64,000 nt of DNA from NCBI GenBank assembly GCA_021810635.1, contig JAJZIH010000002.1, forward strand, positions 62,001 through 126,000, written 5' to 3'. This stretch comes from Pseudomonadota bacterium (GTDB lineage: Bacteria > Pseudomonadota > Gammaproteobacteria > JAKAQQ01). The notes beneath the pieces were generated by a model, which saw only the letters and a program-made list of their open reading frames with translations, was not told the DNA's origin and searched no databases. The position numbers were made by a program, and so were the translations under genes. This document shows positions 51,763-59,273 of the stretch, one piece after another (position 1 is the stretch's first letter; every line of letters starts with the position of its first letter).

Positions 51763-53301
51763 TTAGTGGTGATCCGGGGCAAGAACCTCGTGGTAGAACT
51801 GGATCAGGTTGCGGTCGAGGTGCGCGAGGGTCGCCGGGTGCAGGTAGAGCATGTGCCCGGAGTGGTAGAAGTGAAAATGAACCCGCGCCATGAGCGCGTG
51901 AGGTAGCTTCATGTGGGCAAAATCGAACTCAGTCTTGTAGAACGGGGTTGCAAGATCGAAATAGCCGTTGCCGGAGAAGATCTGGAGATAGGGGTTTTTC
52001 CTCATCGCATCCGCCAGATTGGGGGCGACGTCGGGCAGGGGCCAGGCGTACCGCGTGCCTGGGAAACGGTGGTTCCAGTTCCATTTCCGTATGACTTGGC
52101 CGTTCATGATCCGATAGGGACGATGGGCCACGTAATGCAAGCGGTCCCGGACGTACGCATTGAACGCCGCCGTGAAAGCGGGGGAGACGGCGGCCATGAG
52201 TGCGCCATAGTCGGGAAACTCCTCGGCACCGTCACGGTTGATCCCGGTGAAGCGGGCATCGAGCCGGCCGATGAACCGTTCATGCCCCTGGTTTCTCAGC
52301 AGCTGGGCGCGGAAACGGCTGGGGGTCACCCGCAGGTGGACCGCTGCGAGAAAGCGGGTGCTCAGGCCCGTATATTCATGGAGCTTGGCCAGTACGGCGG
52401 CCTTTCTGGCCGGGCTGAGGCGGCTTCCCTGGAAAAGCGCATAGGCGTAAGAGGTGCGCGCAAACCGTTCGACTTTTCGGATGAGGGGGGCGAGATGCGC
52501 CGGATGCTCGGGCAGGACGTGGTGATACCAGGCAACAGCGGTGTAGGAGGGCAGGTAGGTCACGTAACGCAGATCCGTACCCGGCCAGGAATCCCCGTAG
52601 TTCAGGATGGAGGACAGGAGGATCACGCCATTGCAGGTGATGCCCTGCCCCTCCAGATAGTCCACGAGATTGGCCGACCGGGTTGTCCCGTAGCTTTCCC
52701 CGAGCAAGAACTTGGGCGAGTTCCAGCGGTTGTTCTGGCTGATATAGTGCTCGATGAACTGCCCGAAGGAGCGCACGTCGGCATCAACCCCCCAGAAGCC
52801 CTTGTTCCGCCCCACTCCAACGACGTGGCTGTATCCGGTGCCAACTGCGTCGATGAACACCAGATCGGTGACCGGCAACAGACTCGACGGACTGGAAATC
52901 ACGCGGTAGGGTGGGGGTGGAGTGACCCGGGCATTGGCCGTGACGGCTCGTACGGCACCGAGTCCGCCCATGAGCAGCCAGACCGTGGAAGAGCCGGGGC
53001 CGCCGTTGTAGACGAAGGTGATCGGCCGCTGGGAGGGATGGCGGACGCCGGAACGGGTATAGGCCACGTAAAACATGCTGGCCGTCGGCTGGTTCTTGCG
53101 GTTCTTGAGAATGAGGGTACCTGCGGTTGCGGTATAGGGAATGCGGTGGCCATCCACCACGACCACGCCGTGGCTGACACTGCGCCGGGCCCGGATCGGT
53201 TGGGCAGGGAAGGCAGGATGCCGGGCCGGCAGGTGTGCCCAGGCTCCTGTGGAAGTCATGCTCAGAATGGCCAAGAGACCGGCTTTGCCGAGTTGACGCA
53301 T
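51763..53301 (-). CDS. Secreted serine carboxypeptidase, family S10
   Basis: The start at ATG 53301 has a strong AGGAGG six bases upstream; the longer frame is not needed. Of 512 residues, the first about 22 are a signal peptide (KAGLLAILSMTSTGAWA). The catalytic triad is intact: Ser203 in FLLGESYGTTRSANL, Asp449 in SGNGYFDLATPF and His483 in FYHSGHMLYL. GGPGSSTVWLLMGGLG is the oxyanion-hole region. S10 enzymes remove C-terminal amino acids and work at acidic pH, so a role in peptide use in an acidic periplasm or medium fits. It pairs with the APC permease downstream. Confidence 0.88.
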   Translation of the reverse strand: MRQLGKAGLLAILSMTSTGAWAHLPARHPAFPAQPIRARRSVSHGVVVVDGHRIPYTATAGTLILKNRKNQPTASMFYVAYTRSGVRHPSQRPITFVYNGGPGSSTVWLLMGGLGAVRAVTANARVTPPPPYRVISSPSSLLPVTDLVFIDAVGTGYSHVVGVGRNKGFWGVDADVRSFGQFIEHYISQNNRWNSPKFLLGESYGTTRSANLVDYLEGQGITCNGVILLSSILNYGDSWPGTDLRYVTYLPSYTAVAWYHHVLPEHPAHLAPLIRKVERFARTSYAYALFQGSRLSPARKAAVLAKLHEYTGLSTRFLAAVHLRVTPSRFRAQLLRNQGHERFIGRLDARFTGINRDGAEEFPDYGALMAAVSPAFTAAFNAYVRDRLHYVAHRPYRIMNGQVIRKWNWNHRFPGTRYAWPLPDVAPNLADAMRKNPYLQIFSGNGYFDLATPFYKTEFDFAHMKLPHALMARVHFHFYHSGHMLYLHPATLAHLDRNLIQFYHEVLAPDHH

Positions 53302-53437
53302 GGTGCACCTCCTGCTTGGGCCCAGTGAGGGCCGTGGCGGCTGTGGTTGGGGATGGGCCGGGAGGCAGGGGGCGTCCGGCACACGCCCGCTATCCTATAG
53401 CACCGGCGTACGGATGCCAAATCCGTTGGTGGGCGGA

Positions 53438-54102: not shown

Positions 54103-56214
54103 TCAGGCGCTGCCGAAACGCAGGTCCCCCCCCAGCCAGCGCTCGACCAGGGAGTCGACGGCCTGTGGATTTTCATCGGCCAGTCTTCTCGCGGCTTCCG
54201 GGAGGAGGGCCAGCAGGTCCCGATCCCGGTAGAGTTCGGCGATCCGGAAAGTCAGCCCCCCACTCTGCCGGGCTCCCCAGATCTCGCCCGGACCCCTGAT
54301 TTCAAGGTCGCGCTCCGCAATCCAGAATCCGTCGCTGCTTTGCCGCAGGACCTCAAGGCGCGACCGGGCATCGGGGGTCAGGTTTTCGTATATCAAAAGG
54401 CACTGCCCGCTGTGTGATCCCCGGCCGATACGGCCACGCAACTGGTGCAACTGCAAAAGACCGAGCCGTTCCGCACCATCGATCACCATGACCGTGGCCT
54501 CCGGGATGTCGACTCCCACTTCGACGATCGTGGTGGTGACGAGAACCTGAAACCGCCCTTCCCGGAATCCATCGATCAGTTGTTGCCGTTCGGCCCCGCC
54601 AATCCGGCCATGCAAGAGTCCCACCGGAAAACCGGGAAGGGCTTTCCGGAGTTCATCGAAAGCCGTTTCTGCCGCACGGCCGCCGGAGCCCTCATTTTCC
54701 TCGATTTTTGGGCAGACCCAGAAAATCCGCTGTCCTGCCTCGCACAGGGCCCGCAGCCGATGCATGATTTCGGTACGCCGTTCGGCCGGGAAAATCGTGG
54801 TGGTGATGCCTTGGCGTCCCGGTGGCAATTCATCCAGGCGGGATTGGTCGAGCCCGGCGTACAGGGACATGGCCAGGGTGCGGGGGATTGGCGTGGCGGT
54901 CATGATGAGCTGGTGGGGGCGCAGCCCGGAGCCCTTGTTGACGAGGTCCAGGCGCTGTTCGACGCCGAAACGGTGCTGTTCATCGATGATGACCGTCAGC
55001 AGCCGACCAAAGGCGACTTCCCTCTGGAACAGGTTCTGGGTGCCGAGGACCACACAGGGTGTGCCTGCAGCCAGTGGCTCCAGTATGGAGCGCCGCTGGC
55101 TTCGTGAAGAACGGGAAGCCAGTTTCAGCACCGGTTGGCACAGCGGAGCCAGGAATCTTTGAAAAGTGGCGTGATGCTGTTCGACGAGGAGTTCGGTCGG
55201 AGCCATCACGGCCAACTGTCCCTGGTTGGTCAGGGTGGCCCAGGCGGTCAGGATCGCAACCAGCGTCTTGCCAGAGCCGACATCCCCCTGGAGGAGACGC
55301 AGCATGGGTTTTGTCCGTACGAGATCGGAGGCAATTTCATGCCAGGCGCGCTGTTGGGCCCGGGTCAGTCTCCAGGGCAAGGTCTCGAGGAAATGTTCCA
55401 ACGGTTTGGCGTGGATGGTGAGGGGCTGGCTCTGCGCCCCCTCCCAGTCCATACGGATTTTCTGCACGGAAAGGGCATGGGCGAGTAGCTCTTCGAAGGC
55501 CAGTCGCCGCTGGAAGGGAGCGAGCCATTTCCCAAGGGCTTCTGCGTGGAGACCGGCTGGAGGCTGGTGGACGCCCCTCAGGGCTTCGAAAAGACTGCAG
55601 GATGCCCAGGGCCGGGTCAGTGCGGGAGGGAGGAGATCGGTCAGTTCGAGCCGGTTGTGGGCCATGAGATCAAGTGCTGCCGCGATCAATTGTTCCTGTG
55701 GACGCGATCCTAACCCGGCCCGTTTGGCATAAACCGCGGTCAGACAGGGCTTGAGCGGGGGCAGGCTGCCTTTGAAAACGCGGTATCGCGGGTGGATGAA
55801 CTCCCGGCCCAGTCCGCCATCCCGCAGGATGCCGTAGGCACGGACGATGAGGCCGCGCTTGAGACCGGTGTACTGGGAGTTGTAGAAGTGGAAAAACCGC
55901 AAGTGCAAATGCCCGCTGCCATCGGCAATGCGGCACAGAAGCTGACGACGGGGGGTGTAACGGATATCGGTCAGTTCAACCGTTCCCTGGACCAGCGCCG
56001 CCTGGCCCGGGACCAGTGCCCCGATGGGAATCACCCGGGTTTCATCCTCGTAGCGCAGAGGGAGATCGAAGAGGAGGTCTTCAATTCCACGGAATCCCAG
56101 TCGGACGATTTCCGCCAGGAACGACTCGCGGTCCCGTGGGATCCGTTGGCGGATTCGAGGCGGCTCGTGCCGGTCCGCTTCCACTCCGGATTCAATCCCG
56201 TTGCGCCGGCGCAT
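54103..56214 (-). CDS. recG: ATP-dependent DNA helicase RecG
   Basis: The 703-residue protein starts at ATG 56214, whose ribosome site is weak, and overlaps the end of the S9 gene by 23 bases. After a wedge domain (LFDLPLRYEDETRVIPIGAL, VQGTVELTDIRYTPRRQLLC, HLHLRFFHFYNSQY) come the helicase motifs LLQGDVGSGKTLVAILTAW, MAPTELLVEQH, VVLGTQNLFQ, IDEQHRFGVEQRL and TATPIPRTLAMS. The VTTTIVEVGVDIPEATVMVI strand and QLRGRIGRGSHSGQC close the second lobe. RecG remodels stalled forks and Holliday junctions. Length matches E. coli RecG. It lies upstream of ubiC. Confidence 0.95.
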   Translation of the reverse strand: MRRRNGIESGVEADRHEPPRIRQRIPRDRESFLAEIVRLGFRGIEDLLFDLPLRYEDETRVIPIGALVPGQAALVQGTVELTDIRYTPRRQLLCRIADGSGHLHLRFFHFYNSQYTGLKRGLIVRAYGILRDGGLGREFIHPRYRVFKGSLPPLKPCLTAVYAKRAGLGSRPQEQLIAAALDLMAHNRLELTDLLPPALTRPWASCSLFEALRGVHQPPAGLHAEALGKWLAPFQRRLAFEELLAHALSVQKIRMDWEGAQSQPLTIHAKPLEHFLETLPWRLTRAQQRAWHEIASDLVRTKPMLRLLQGDVGSGKTLVAILTAWATLTNQGQLAVMAPTELLVEQHHATFQRFLAPLCQPVLKLASRSSRSQRRSILEPLAAGTPCVVLGTQNLFQREVAFGRLLTVIIDEQHRFGVEQRLDLVNKGSGLRPHQLIMTATPIPRTLAMSLYAGLDQSRLDELPPGRQGITTTIFPAERRTEIMHRLRALCEAGQRIFWVCPKIEENEGSGGRAAETAFDELRKALPGFPVGLLHGRIGGAERQQLIDGFREGRFQVLVTTTIVEVGVDIPEATVMVIDGAERLGLLQLHQLRGRIGRGSHSGQCLLIYENLTPDARSRLEVLRQSSDGFWIAERDLEIRGPGEIWGARQSGGLTFRIAELYRDRDLLALLPEAARRLADENPQAVDSLVERWLGGDLRFGSA

Positions 56215-58264
56215 GGACCGGTGGATAGACGGGCATGAGGGTCCGATCCAGGAAAGCCACGATCGTCCGCCAAATCCGTGTGCGGGTCTGGGGTCCGGTG
56301 AAGTGCCAACCTTGTGTCGGCTCTTCCATGATCTGGACCGGAATCGAGTGTTTGCGGAGGATTGAAACGAAACGATCTTCCCCGCTGGAAGGATCCAGCG
56401 AATCCCGACCCCCCTCAACCAGGAAAACCGGTGCGCGCACGGACTGGGCATGGGCGAGGGGCGACTCGGACTCAAGATGGTGACGGCCGAGCACCGTCTC
56501 CAGGAACCACCGGCCGAAGGGCGTTCGCCACAACCGGTCTGCAGGACTTTTCAGCGAGGGCAAGCGGTAGATCCCATCCAGACTCACGATCGCACGGACC
56601 CGTTTGGGGTGTTCGGCCCCAAGCATGAGGGCCGCATATCCGCCGTAGCCGTGCCCGGCCAAGGCCAGCTTCCCATCCGGGATCTTGTGCTGCCGGGCAG
56701 CCCAGCGAACAGCTGCCCAGACTCCCTTGAGCATGGCCCCTCCCCATTGCCGGTACCCCAGCCTGCGCCAGCCTCTCCCCCGCCCAAAGGAACCCGGATA
56801 GTCCACTTCCATGACCACGAAGCCGTGGCGCGTGAGTTCCTGCAGGCGTGGATCAAAGCGCCAACGCATGCCTTCCCGGAAGGGATGGCCATGGATCCAG
56901 ACGACCAGACCCTTCCGCGCGCTGACCGCCCTGTGCGGGAAAGCCAGGTAAACCGGTTCTTGCAGTCGGTGCCAGGGGACGAGGAACGCGTGCCAGCGGG
57001 ACAGTGCGGGAGGTGCTATTTCCGGCTGAACGCTCATGAGGTAGCGCAGGAGATGGCGTTTGGGGTTGAAGAGGTAGTATTCCCCCGGATTACGGTCTCC
57101 TCTCACCCGAACCAAGACCGTGGAATGATTGTGGTCGACACTCAGAATGTTGATCCGCTGGTTGCGGAAGACCGGAGCTAGCAACCGGAGCCATTCGGCT
57201 TCGGGGTTTTTCGGGGCGATCACGACCCAGTGTGGCTTCCGGACCCCCACCCAGACGGCATAGATCCGTCCGGAGGGAGCCCGGGCAATCCGGCGGATGT
57301 CGTTGCTGGGGTCCACGTAGAGACGGGTCTCCTTCCTGGTGCCGGGATTTACGTCGTAGAGCCCGAGGGTGCCGTAGTGACTGGCCCTGAGGAGGTAAAA
57401 ACGGCGGTTACCGGGCAGGAAGCCCAAAGGTCTGATACCGGATGCCGGGCCCGAGCCTTCGAGCAGGAAACTCAGGTTCTTCCATTCCAGAGTATGGGGT
57501 TCCCGGAACCATAACTCGGTCCGTCCCGTGAGGGCGTTTGTACCGAAGGCCAGACGCACGTGTCCATCGTTGTCGGGGAGCAACTGTCCGTTGGTCATTG
57601 GACTGTGGATTCCGCGTAGCAAGTGTCCAGTCCGGACGTTCAAGATTTCGGCTTCCGGCGCAAGATCGGCGGAGGAATAGCGCTCGACGACCATCCGGTC
57701 TGGGTCATGGTCGAACGGGGACAGGATCAGGTAGATGGCGACGTTGACCTCCAGACGGTGCTTTCGGTAGCCGGCGAGGAGGTGGCTTTGCGCACGGTGA
57801 TGGATCAGGTGAATGGCCCAAATCTCTCCGCTTCGGAGAGTTCTGCGGTAGCCCGGCAGCTTGACCCGGGTGGTGACCAAGAGGGTCCGGGATCCGGCCC
57901 ATCTCAGGTGATTGATCCGGCTTTCGCGAACCAGGTGCAAACGCTGGTCGTAGCGGGGCATCCTCAGGTTGAGGAGCGCGAGGCCTTCCTGCCGGGCATC
58001 GCGAAAGTAACCAGCAATGGCCAGCCAGTGACCGTTGGGGGAAAGCCTGGCATGGGTGGCACGGGAGTTGGCGAAGCCGGATGCCAGGGGGGGGATGGCT
58101 GCTTTTCCCCTCCGTGCAAATCCGGCACCGGAGGCGGGTAGTAGACAGATTGCCAGGAGGCTCCAGAGTCCCAGGGCCCGTGGGGTGATATGAACCGGAA
58201 ATCGACAGGTTGAATATTCAGCCGAAGCGGATCTTGCTTTCAAGGTTGGTGCGGGAATCGGCAT
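56192..58264 (-). CDS. S9-family prolyl-oligopeptidase homologue with catalytic Ser replaced by Gly
   Basis: The 690-residue protein has a hydrophobic signal-like stretch (LGLWSLLAICLLPASG), a beta-propeller half (about residues 80-440) and an alpha/beta-hydrolase C-terminal half: VVWIHGHPFREGMRWRFDPR, VMEVDYPGSFGRGRGWRR, then LALAGHGYGGYAALMLGAEH. S9 enzymes have GGSYGG or GxSxGG at that position, and here Gly539 replaces the nucleophilic serine. A histidine (His654 in QGWHFTG) and an acidic site (VEGGRDSLDP) remain. It should be inactive as a serine peptidase. Both ends overlap neighbours: 47 bases with the PilT-like gene and 23 with recG. The start is uncertain. Confidence 0.75.
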   Translation of the reverse strand: MPIPAPTLKARSASAEYSTCRFPVHITPRALGLWSLLAICLLPASGAGFARRGKAAIPPLASGFANSRATHARLSPNGHWLAIAGYFRDARQEGLALLNLRMPRYDQRLHLVRESRINHLRWAGSRTLLVTTRVKLPGYRRTLRSGEIWAIHLIHHRAQSHLLAGYRKHRLEVNVAIYLILSPFDHDPDRMVVERYSSADLAPEAEILNVRTGHLLRGIHSPMTNGQLLPDNDGHVRLAFGTNALTGRTELWFREPHTLEWKNLSFLLEGSGPASGIRPLGFLPGNRRFYLLRASHYGTLGLYDVNPGTRKETRLYVDPSNDIRRIARAPSGRIYAVWVGVRKPHWVVIAPKNPEAEWLRLLAPVFRNQRINILSVDHNHSTVLVRVRGDRNPGEYYLFNPKRHLLRYLMSVQPEIAPPALSRWHAFLVPWHRLQEPVYLAFPHRAVSARKGLVVWIHGHPFREGMRWRFDPRLQELTRHGFVVMEVDYPGSFGRGRGWRRLGYRQWGGAMLKGVWAAVRWAARQHKIPDGKLALAGHGYGGYAALMLGAEHPKRVRAIVSLDGIYRLPSLKSPADRLWRTPFGRWFLETVLGRHHLESESPLAHAQSVRAPVFLVEGGRDSLDPSSGEDRFVSILRKHSIPVQIMEEPTQGWHFTGPQTRTRIWRTIVAFLDRTLMPVYPPVHAPAQRD

Positions 58265-59273
58265 AGTTCAGCCCTGTCTTGAGGTCAATGATGCCATTCC
58301 GGTAGAGCTGGTAAAGCGCCGTATCGAACGTTTGCATGCCGATTTCATGGCTGGACTCCATGGCTTCACGCAAAATACCGAGTTCTCCCTTGTGAATCAA
58401 GTCCGCGATATGGGGGGTGTTGAGCAGAACTTCGACCGCGGCGACCAGTTTCGCATCGACATTGGGGACCAGCCGCTGGGCGATGATGGCCCGCATCGTG
58501 GCCGCAAGGTCGGTGAGCACCAGTCGGCGGGCCGGTTCGGGGTAGAGGTTCAGGATCCGTTCCAGTGTCTGGTAGGCATTGCTCGTGTGTAGCGTGGCCA
58601 GGGTCAGGTGGCCGGTTGCCGCCATCTCGATCGCAGCGGACATCGTTTCAGAATCACGGATTTCTCCGATCAGAAGAACGTCCGGGGTCGCGCGTAGCGC
58701 GCTGCGCAACGCATCCGCATAGCTCAGGACATCGTTGCCGATCTCGCGCTGGTTGATGATCGACAGGCGGTTCTCGTAGACATACTCGATCGGATCCTCG
58801 ATTGTGAGAATGTGATCCGCCTGCTGGGTGTTCCGGTAGTCGATCAGGGAGGCCAGGGTTGTGGATTTCCCGGCGCCTGTCGCCCCCACGACGAGAACGA
58901 GTCCCCTGGGTACCAGGACCAGCTCCTTGAGAACTGCCGGCAATCCCAGCGTATCCAACTCGGGGACCTTGATCGGAATCAAGCGGATGGCCATGGCCAC
59001 CCGTCCGCGCTCGAGAAATACATTCACCCGATAGCGGCCGACCCCGACGATTTCCATGGGGAACTCGGCCTGGTGCCGGTTCTCGAACTGGTTGATCAGC
59101 CTCTCCGTCATGATCCCCAGGGCTGCTTCCCGGATCATCGACTCATCGATTGGCGTCCGTCCGACCGACAGGAGTTTTCCCTGTACCCGGAGCTTGATGG
59201 GCGCGTCCGTGGTCAGGTACAGGTCCGAAGCGAATCGTTCGGCCATGAGGCGCAGGTAGGGTTCAATGTTCAT
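58218..59273 (-). CDS. PilT/PilU-family type IV pilus ATPase, third paralogue
   Basis: The 351-residue protein is a PilT-like ATPase: LYLTTDAPIKLRVQGKL, LVLVVGATGAGKSTTLASLI (Walker A), ILTIEDPIEYVYEN (Asp box), LRATPDVLLIGEIRDSETM (Walker B) and ATGHLTLATLHTSNAYQTL (His box). It ends in the conserved MQTFDTALYQLY region. All catalytic residues are present. It is shorter than PilU and differs from PilT at the C terminus, so it is a third retraction-type ATPase of unknown job. It lies 41 bases after pilU and overlaps the S9 gene. Confidence 0.88.
   Translation of the reverse strand: MNIEPYLRLMAERFASDLYLTTDAPIKLRVQGKLLSVGRTPIDESMIREAALGIMTERLINQFENRHQAEFPMEIVGVGRYRVNVFLERGRVAMAIRLIPIKVPELDTLGLPAVLKELVLVPRGLVLVVGATGAGKSTTLASLIDYRNTQQADHILTIEDPIEYVYENRLSIINQREIGNDVLSYADALRSALRATPDVLLIGEIRDSETMSAAIEMAATGHLTLATLHTSNAYQTLERILNLYPEPARRLVLTDLAATMRAIIAQRLVPNVDAKLVAAVEVLLNTPHIADLIHKGELGILREAMESSHEIGMQTFDTALYQLYRNGIIDLKTGLNYADSRTNLESKIRFG

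Follow-up and report, generated by a model that had tools for sequence, protein, structure and literature searches.

The locus and the encoded protein

The window, i.e., the whole stretch of 64,000 nucleotides analyzed here, carries on its minus strand an open reading frame of 690 open codons, which was identified as the gene of a putative S9-family pseudopeptidase positioned between a pilT-type ATPase gene and recG. The following features were distinguished at this locus:

58218–59273, minus strand: upstream neighbour, pilT-type ATPase gene, 351 aa (PF00437; synteny)
56192–58264, minus strand: putative S9-family pseudopeptidase gene, 690 aa (ORF and translation, PF00326, AF2 model, Foldseek)
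58115–58264, minus strand: N-terminal extension and probable signal peptide, hydrophobic LGLWSLLAICLLPASGAGFA (translation, by eye)
56990–58069, minus strand: beta-propeller domain, residues about 66–425 (strand-rich part of the AF2 model)
56237–56971, minus strand: alpha/beta-hydrolase domain, residues about 432–676 (AF2 model; PF00326 at 468–676)
56882–56893, minus strand: HGHP, residues 458–461, replacing HGGP (alignment)
56648–56650, minus strand: nucleophile codon GGC, Gly539 (GHGYGG) replacing Ser (sequence; 32-homologue alignment)
56402–56404, minus strand: Asp621, triad acid, kept (GGRD; nearly invariant alignment column)
56306–56308, minus strand: Trp653 at the catalytic-His column (GWHF versus GHGF or GHRF; alignment)
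56303–56305, minus strand: His654, adjoining the catalytic column and not the triad His (alignment)
54103–56214, minus strand: downstream neighbour, recG (PF00270, PF19833, PF17191; synteny)

The frame of the S9 gene starts within the upstream pilT-type gene, the overlap amounting to 47 bases, and at its other end it probably reaches about 20 bases into recG. Upstream of the S9 gene, three consecutive pilT-type (PF00437) ATPase genes are encoded between positions 58218 and 61702 (minus strand), which is one above the usual pilT–pilU pair. A further ORF nearby (51763–53382, minus strand) resembles S10 serine carboxypeptidases, its Ser, Asp, and His segments appearing normal by eye.

Membership of the protein in family S9 is evident from homology, since residues 468–676 match Pfam Peptidase_S9 (PF00326, E=6.3e-24, score above the gathering cut-off), and the combination of a propeller with an alpha/beta-hydrolase domain was recovered in the AF2 model and by Foldseek. 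The model of the 690-aa protein, calculated from an alignment of 32 sequences, reached a mean pLDDT of 83.3 and a pTM of 0.84, with low pLDDT values for residues 1–53. The top Foldseek matches in the PDB were 8wt1, 5l8s, and other S9/acylaminoacyl peptidases (E down to 1e-28), which, together with the model, bears out the complete fold proposed in the preliminary description of this DNA. By sequence, the nearest solved structure is 5l8s, an acylaminoacyl-type S9 peptidase (E=1.7e-18). Likeness to the acylaminoacyl/S9C-type peptidases (5l8s, 1ve6, 5yzm, and 8wt1) is thus apparent in the best sequence match (5l8s) and in the best structural matches (8wt1 and 5l8s); DPP4-type entries ranked lower, and the protein was not placed in S9B. 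Judged by eye, the hydrophobic N-terminus is typical of a signal peptide, and the protein is probably exported to the periplasm. The leaders of the orthologues are likewise short and hydrophobic, with AEA at the end.

Active-site residues among the homologues

The codon at positions 56650–56648 was confirmed as GGC, placing Gly539 of the GHGYGG motif at the nucleophile elbow of the confidently modelled hydrolase, between strand 533–538 and helix 540–551. Accordingly, the Ser in GxSxGG, by which an active S9 peptidase is recognized, is absent from the window protein. Across the 32 aligned homologues, the nucleophile column holds Ser in 25 and Gly in 7 sequences. The Gly carriers comprise the window protein, three proteins of the sister genus g3 (L005 and L006 with GTGYGG, L007 with GSGYGG), and three more distant homologues of a second sister genus, g2 (L011 and L012 with GEGLGA, L019 with GRGTGG). 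Ser occupies this column also in active-looking paralogues encoded in the same genomes as the Gly proteins. The three g3 proteins originate from separate MAG records, are 52–55% identical to the window protein, and are syntenic with it, the order being pilT-type ATPases, S9 gene, and then recG in the window and in the g3 genomes. All three keep the Gly, so that the replacement of the nucleophile is conserved in four out of four syntenic orthologues (hereafter, the core proteins).

The catalytic-His column corresponds to residue 653, which is His in 29 of the 32 rows and Trp in the window protein (QGWHF), this exchange being known from a single genome; the three g3 orthologues are among the rows with His (QGHRF). 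The preliminary description had taken His654 for the remaining catalytic His, which proved wrong for the window protein, though the catalytic His does remain in the g3 orthologues; its statement that the acidic region remains holds, as Asp621 is kept at the acid column. Hence, one of three triad residues is present in the window protein (Asp621) and two of three in the g3 orthologues (Asp and His). Further motifs of the core proteins have changed as well: HGGP, found in all 25 Ser homologues, reads H[GD]HP in all four, RGSGGYG became PGSFG[SR]G, and EGHGF became QGHRF or QGWHF. In the g2 homologues, Ser, Asp, and the GHxF motif are all lost; the single His that L012 shows in the catalytic-His column is part of VHGS and seems to have been aligned there by chance.

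An alignment-based scan of genome contigs found solely the three g3 MAGs, a single-protein scan of genome contigs found nothing, and no further member at E<=1e-80 was detected in a phylum sample of 398 genomes. Relatives were not found in viral contigs or phage records, and plasmid matches were limited to distant S9 peptidases (24–28% identical). In the search report, two S9 homologues of another order (L063 and L064) contained one in-frame stop each. In two further genomes of the window's own genus (G001 and G002), recG and the corresponding pilT gene are also missing from the assemblies; therefore, the absence of the S9 gene there was not counted as a loss. The stem branches of the Gly proteins are long (1.3 and 2.19 changes per column), and for this reason two questions addressed to the tree stay unsure, namely the single origin of the Gly, which is weakly supported (79/94), and the grouping of the core proteins with pilT-linked active S9 peptidases, neither established nor rejected at a p-AU of 0.066.

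The genomic neighbourhood differs in g2, where recG directly follows the pilT-type gene and the Gly homologue lies elsewhere, away from this site. In L042 (2344–4635), an S10-like ORF was also noticed a few kb away from the Gly homologue. Nine S9 loci of family f41 (L008/L053, L054, and L056–L062), belonging to a different order of the same class, adjoin the same pilT-type ATPases and feature a normal nucleophile, so the pilT neighbourhood is not specific to the inactive form. The f41 proteins are 25–30% identical to the window protein over most of its length and are encoded at the same position next to the pilT-type ATPases; unlike the window protein, they possess an intact GxSYGG, Asp, and His, and recG is not adjacent in the examined locus (L044). 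The literature provided no link between prolyl-oligopeptidase-family proteins and pilT, apart from a proteomics paper that merely holds both words.

Selection and domain constraint

None of the seven Gly carriers contains an internal stop. Nei–Gojobori dN/dS values among the three g3 orthologues ranged between 0.16 and 0.17, indicating purifying selection, and those for the window protein against g3 between 0.23 and 0.29, with synonymous sites close to saturation. The rest of the protein has therefore not decayed, as the preliminary description had maintained.

As a matched control, the active-looking, full-triad S9 paralogue (L013–L015) of the same three g3 genomes was compared over the same genome pairs, which share genomes and are not independent comparisons. 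In the propeller, the divergence of the pseudoenzyme equalled that of the active paralogue (Fisher p 0.46–0.93). The hydrolase domain, on the other hand, differed at 53–63 of 245 positions in the pseudoenzyme versus 21–24 of 248 in the paralogue, corresponding to a 2.3–2.8-fold higher divergence (Fisher p 1.6e-4 to 3e-6 per pair). Dividing hydrolase by propeller divergence gave 0.37–0.42 for the active paralogue and 0.53–0.77 for other active sets, compared to 0.95–1.24 for the g3 pseudoenzymes, 1.06–1.12 for the window protein against g3, and 1.73–2.02 for the g2 homologues. The extra constraint on the catalytic domain is lost, while the gene is not decaying.

Within the hydrolase domain of the core proteins, the shell around the former active site is the best-conserved part, 32 of its 43 columns being invariant versus 81 of 202 in the remaining domain (p=4e-5). 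This pattern favours a pocket that may have been retained, the alternative being a folding requirement.

Possible roles and known counterparts

Taken together, the window protein has very probably lost its peptidase activity. The preliminary description regarded it as a pseudoenzyme with a likely binding or signalling function. The former part is well supported because orthologues share the Gly, further motifs of the active site are altered, and the hydrolase domain has been released from its extra constraint under maintained purifying selection; the latter stands as a reasonable reading only, for which the conserved shell of the former active site gives the ground. We consider it fairly probable that the gene encodes an exported two-domain, S9C-like (acylaminoacyl-peptidase-like) protein which lost peptidase activity and was kept as a non-catalytic protein, with substrate-like peptides or tails docking in the old cleft. 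Catalysis would have been abolished by Gly539 at the nucleophile and, in the window genome, additionally by the exchange of the triad His for Trp653. The cleft of the former active site, remodelled and lying between propeller and hydrolase, would still admit and bind substrate-like peptides or protein tails, making the protein a peptide-binding or sequestering factor of the periplasm. Both the lack of activity and the use of the pocket as a binding site are what we infer from these observations. It counts against this explanation that the g3 proteins keep Asp and His, the Ser alone being missing there.

The main rival, which we regard as possible but clearly the less favoured, is that of a scaffold or a structural or regulatory subunit which uses its propeller and surface to bind either an active S9 peptidase or some other protein of the envelope, the old active site being irrelevant. 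Precedents are DPP6 and DPP10, which act as channel subunits (PMC4350108), and a potential partner exists in g3, where the active-looking paralogue L013–L015 is encoded as well. In g2, moreover, none of the triad motifs survives and the hydrolase domain has diverged at about twice the rate of the propeller, so that there the propeller carries the constraint and the balance tips to a propeller-based role. For the window and g3, however, conservation within the hydrolase domain is highest in the former active-site shell, and neither the window's genome nor G001 and G002 yielded the close active paralogue (these genomes are only 85–89% complete), so that the paralogue is not a general partner. 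A periplasmic peptide- or protein-binding role via the remodelled cleft is the explanation we favour.

A stepwise scenario was judged rather unlikely. According to it, an exported S9 peptidase encoded together with type IV pilus retraction-type ATPases would have turned into a non-catalytic binding or scaffold protein by losing first the Ser, then the His, and then the Asp and the constraint on the hydrolase domain, the propeller being the lasting functional part in a pilus- or envelope-linked role.

Catalysis by another route, using a different serine, or water in the cavity left by the Gly, together with the kept Asp, is improbable. Besides Asp621 and the His maintained in g3, Ser561 might be named for it, as all four core proteins have this residue, whereas most other rows of the 32-sequence alignment have Gly there. 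Nevertheless, the residue adjoining Gly539 varies among the core proteins (His, Thr, Thr, and Ser), which means that a conserved neighbouring nucleophile is lacking; Ser492 and Ser601, in turn, do not vary in any of the 32 sequences, whether or not the nucleophile is normal. A shift of the nucleophile to another serine, looked for in this alignment, was not found, and no conserved substitute was evident. The Trp at the His column in the window protein and the lost extra constraint on the hydrolase domain also argue against such activity.

It is very improbable that the gene is decaying on its way out, with a lesion inherited throughout the family. The long stem branches of the Gly proteins and the further triad losses in two genera would fit such a course, but intact frames in all seven carriers, dN/dS values of 0.16–0.29, and a propeller as constrained as that of the active paralogue do not. 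Finally, a sequencing or assembly error at the one codon, conceivable in a draft assembly where a Ser codon such as AGC is one base away from GGC, was ruled out, as was chance, because three orthologues, each assembled as a separate MAG, likewise have Gly there, accompanied by other active-site changes.

Non-peptidase homologues are listed by MEROPS in many peptidase families, and for S9 pseudopeptidases whose role is known, the best documentation comes from animals (DPP6/DPP10). A limited literature search, with subscription journals mostly outside its range, yielded no description of a bacterial S9 pseudopeptidase. For the non-catalytic binding protein favoured here, the closest counterpart in kind is human DPP10, which carries Gly instead of the catalytic Ser (GKGYGG), lacks activity, and serves as a Kv4 channel subunit (PMC4350108). 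DPP10 (DPPY), placed with DPP6 in S9B, shares with the window protein the propeller and alpha/beta-hydrolase domains, an intact fold, a near-identical elbow (GKGYGG there, GHGYGG here), and the non-catalytic state proposed for the latter (PMC4350108, PMC4873792). Unlike the window protein, DPP10 is a membrane-anchored S9B Kv4 subunit keeping His and Asp; the window protein, in turn, is bacterial, probably periplasmic, and S9C-like, and its triad His is lost as well. As it is nearer to the S9C enzymes, the resemblance is one of kind and does not imply membership in the DPP6/DPP10 group; the shared Ser-to-Gly exchange is a parallel and no evidence for common descent of the pseudoenzymes. The DPP10 of the fly, a channel subunit that is at the same time an active peptidase (PMC4873792), shows that catalysis and a non-catalytic role can occur together before catalysis is lost.

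Compared to the S9C-type enzymes with their Ser-His-Asp triad, the window protein has both Ser and His replaced and the HGGP and EGHGF motifs altered, and the automatic name 'S9 family peptidase' would mislead for ORF 56192–58264. Because this bacterial set is accompanied by active-looking paralogues from the same genomes as well as by intact homologues at loci of the same type elsewhere, the loss of catalysis becomes directly comparable with a matched control.
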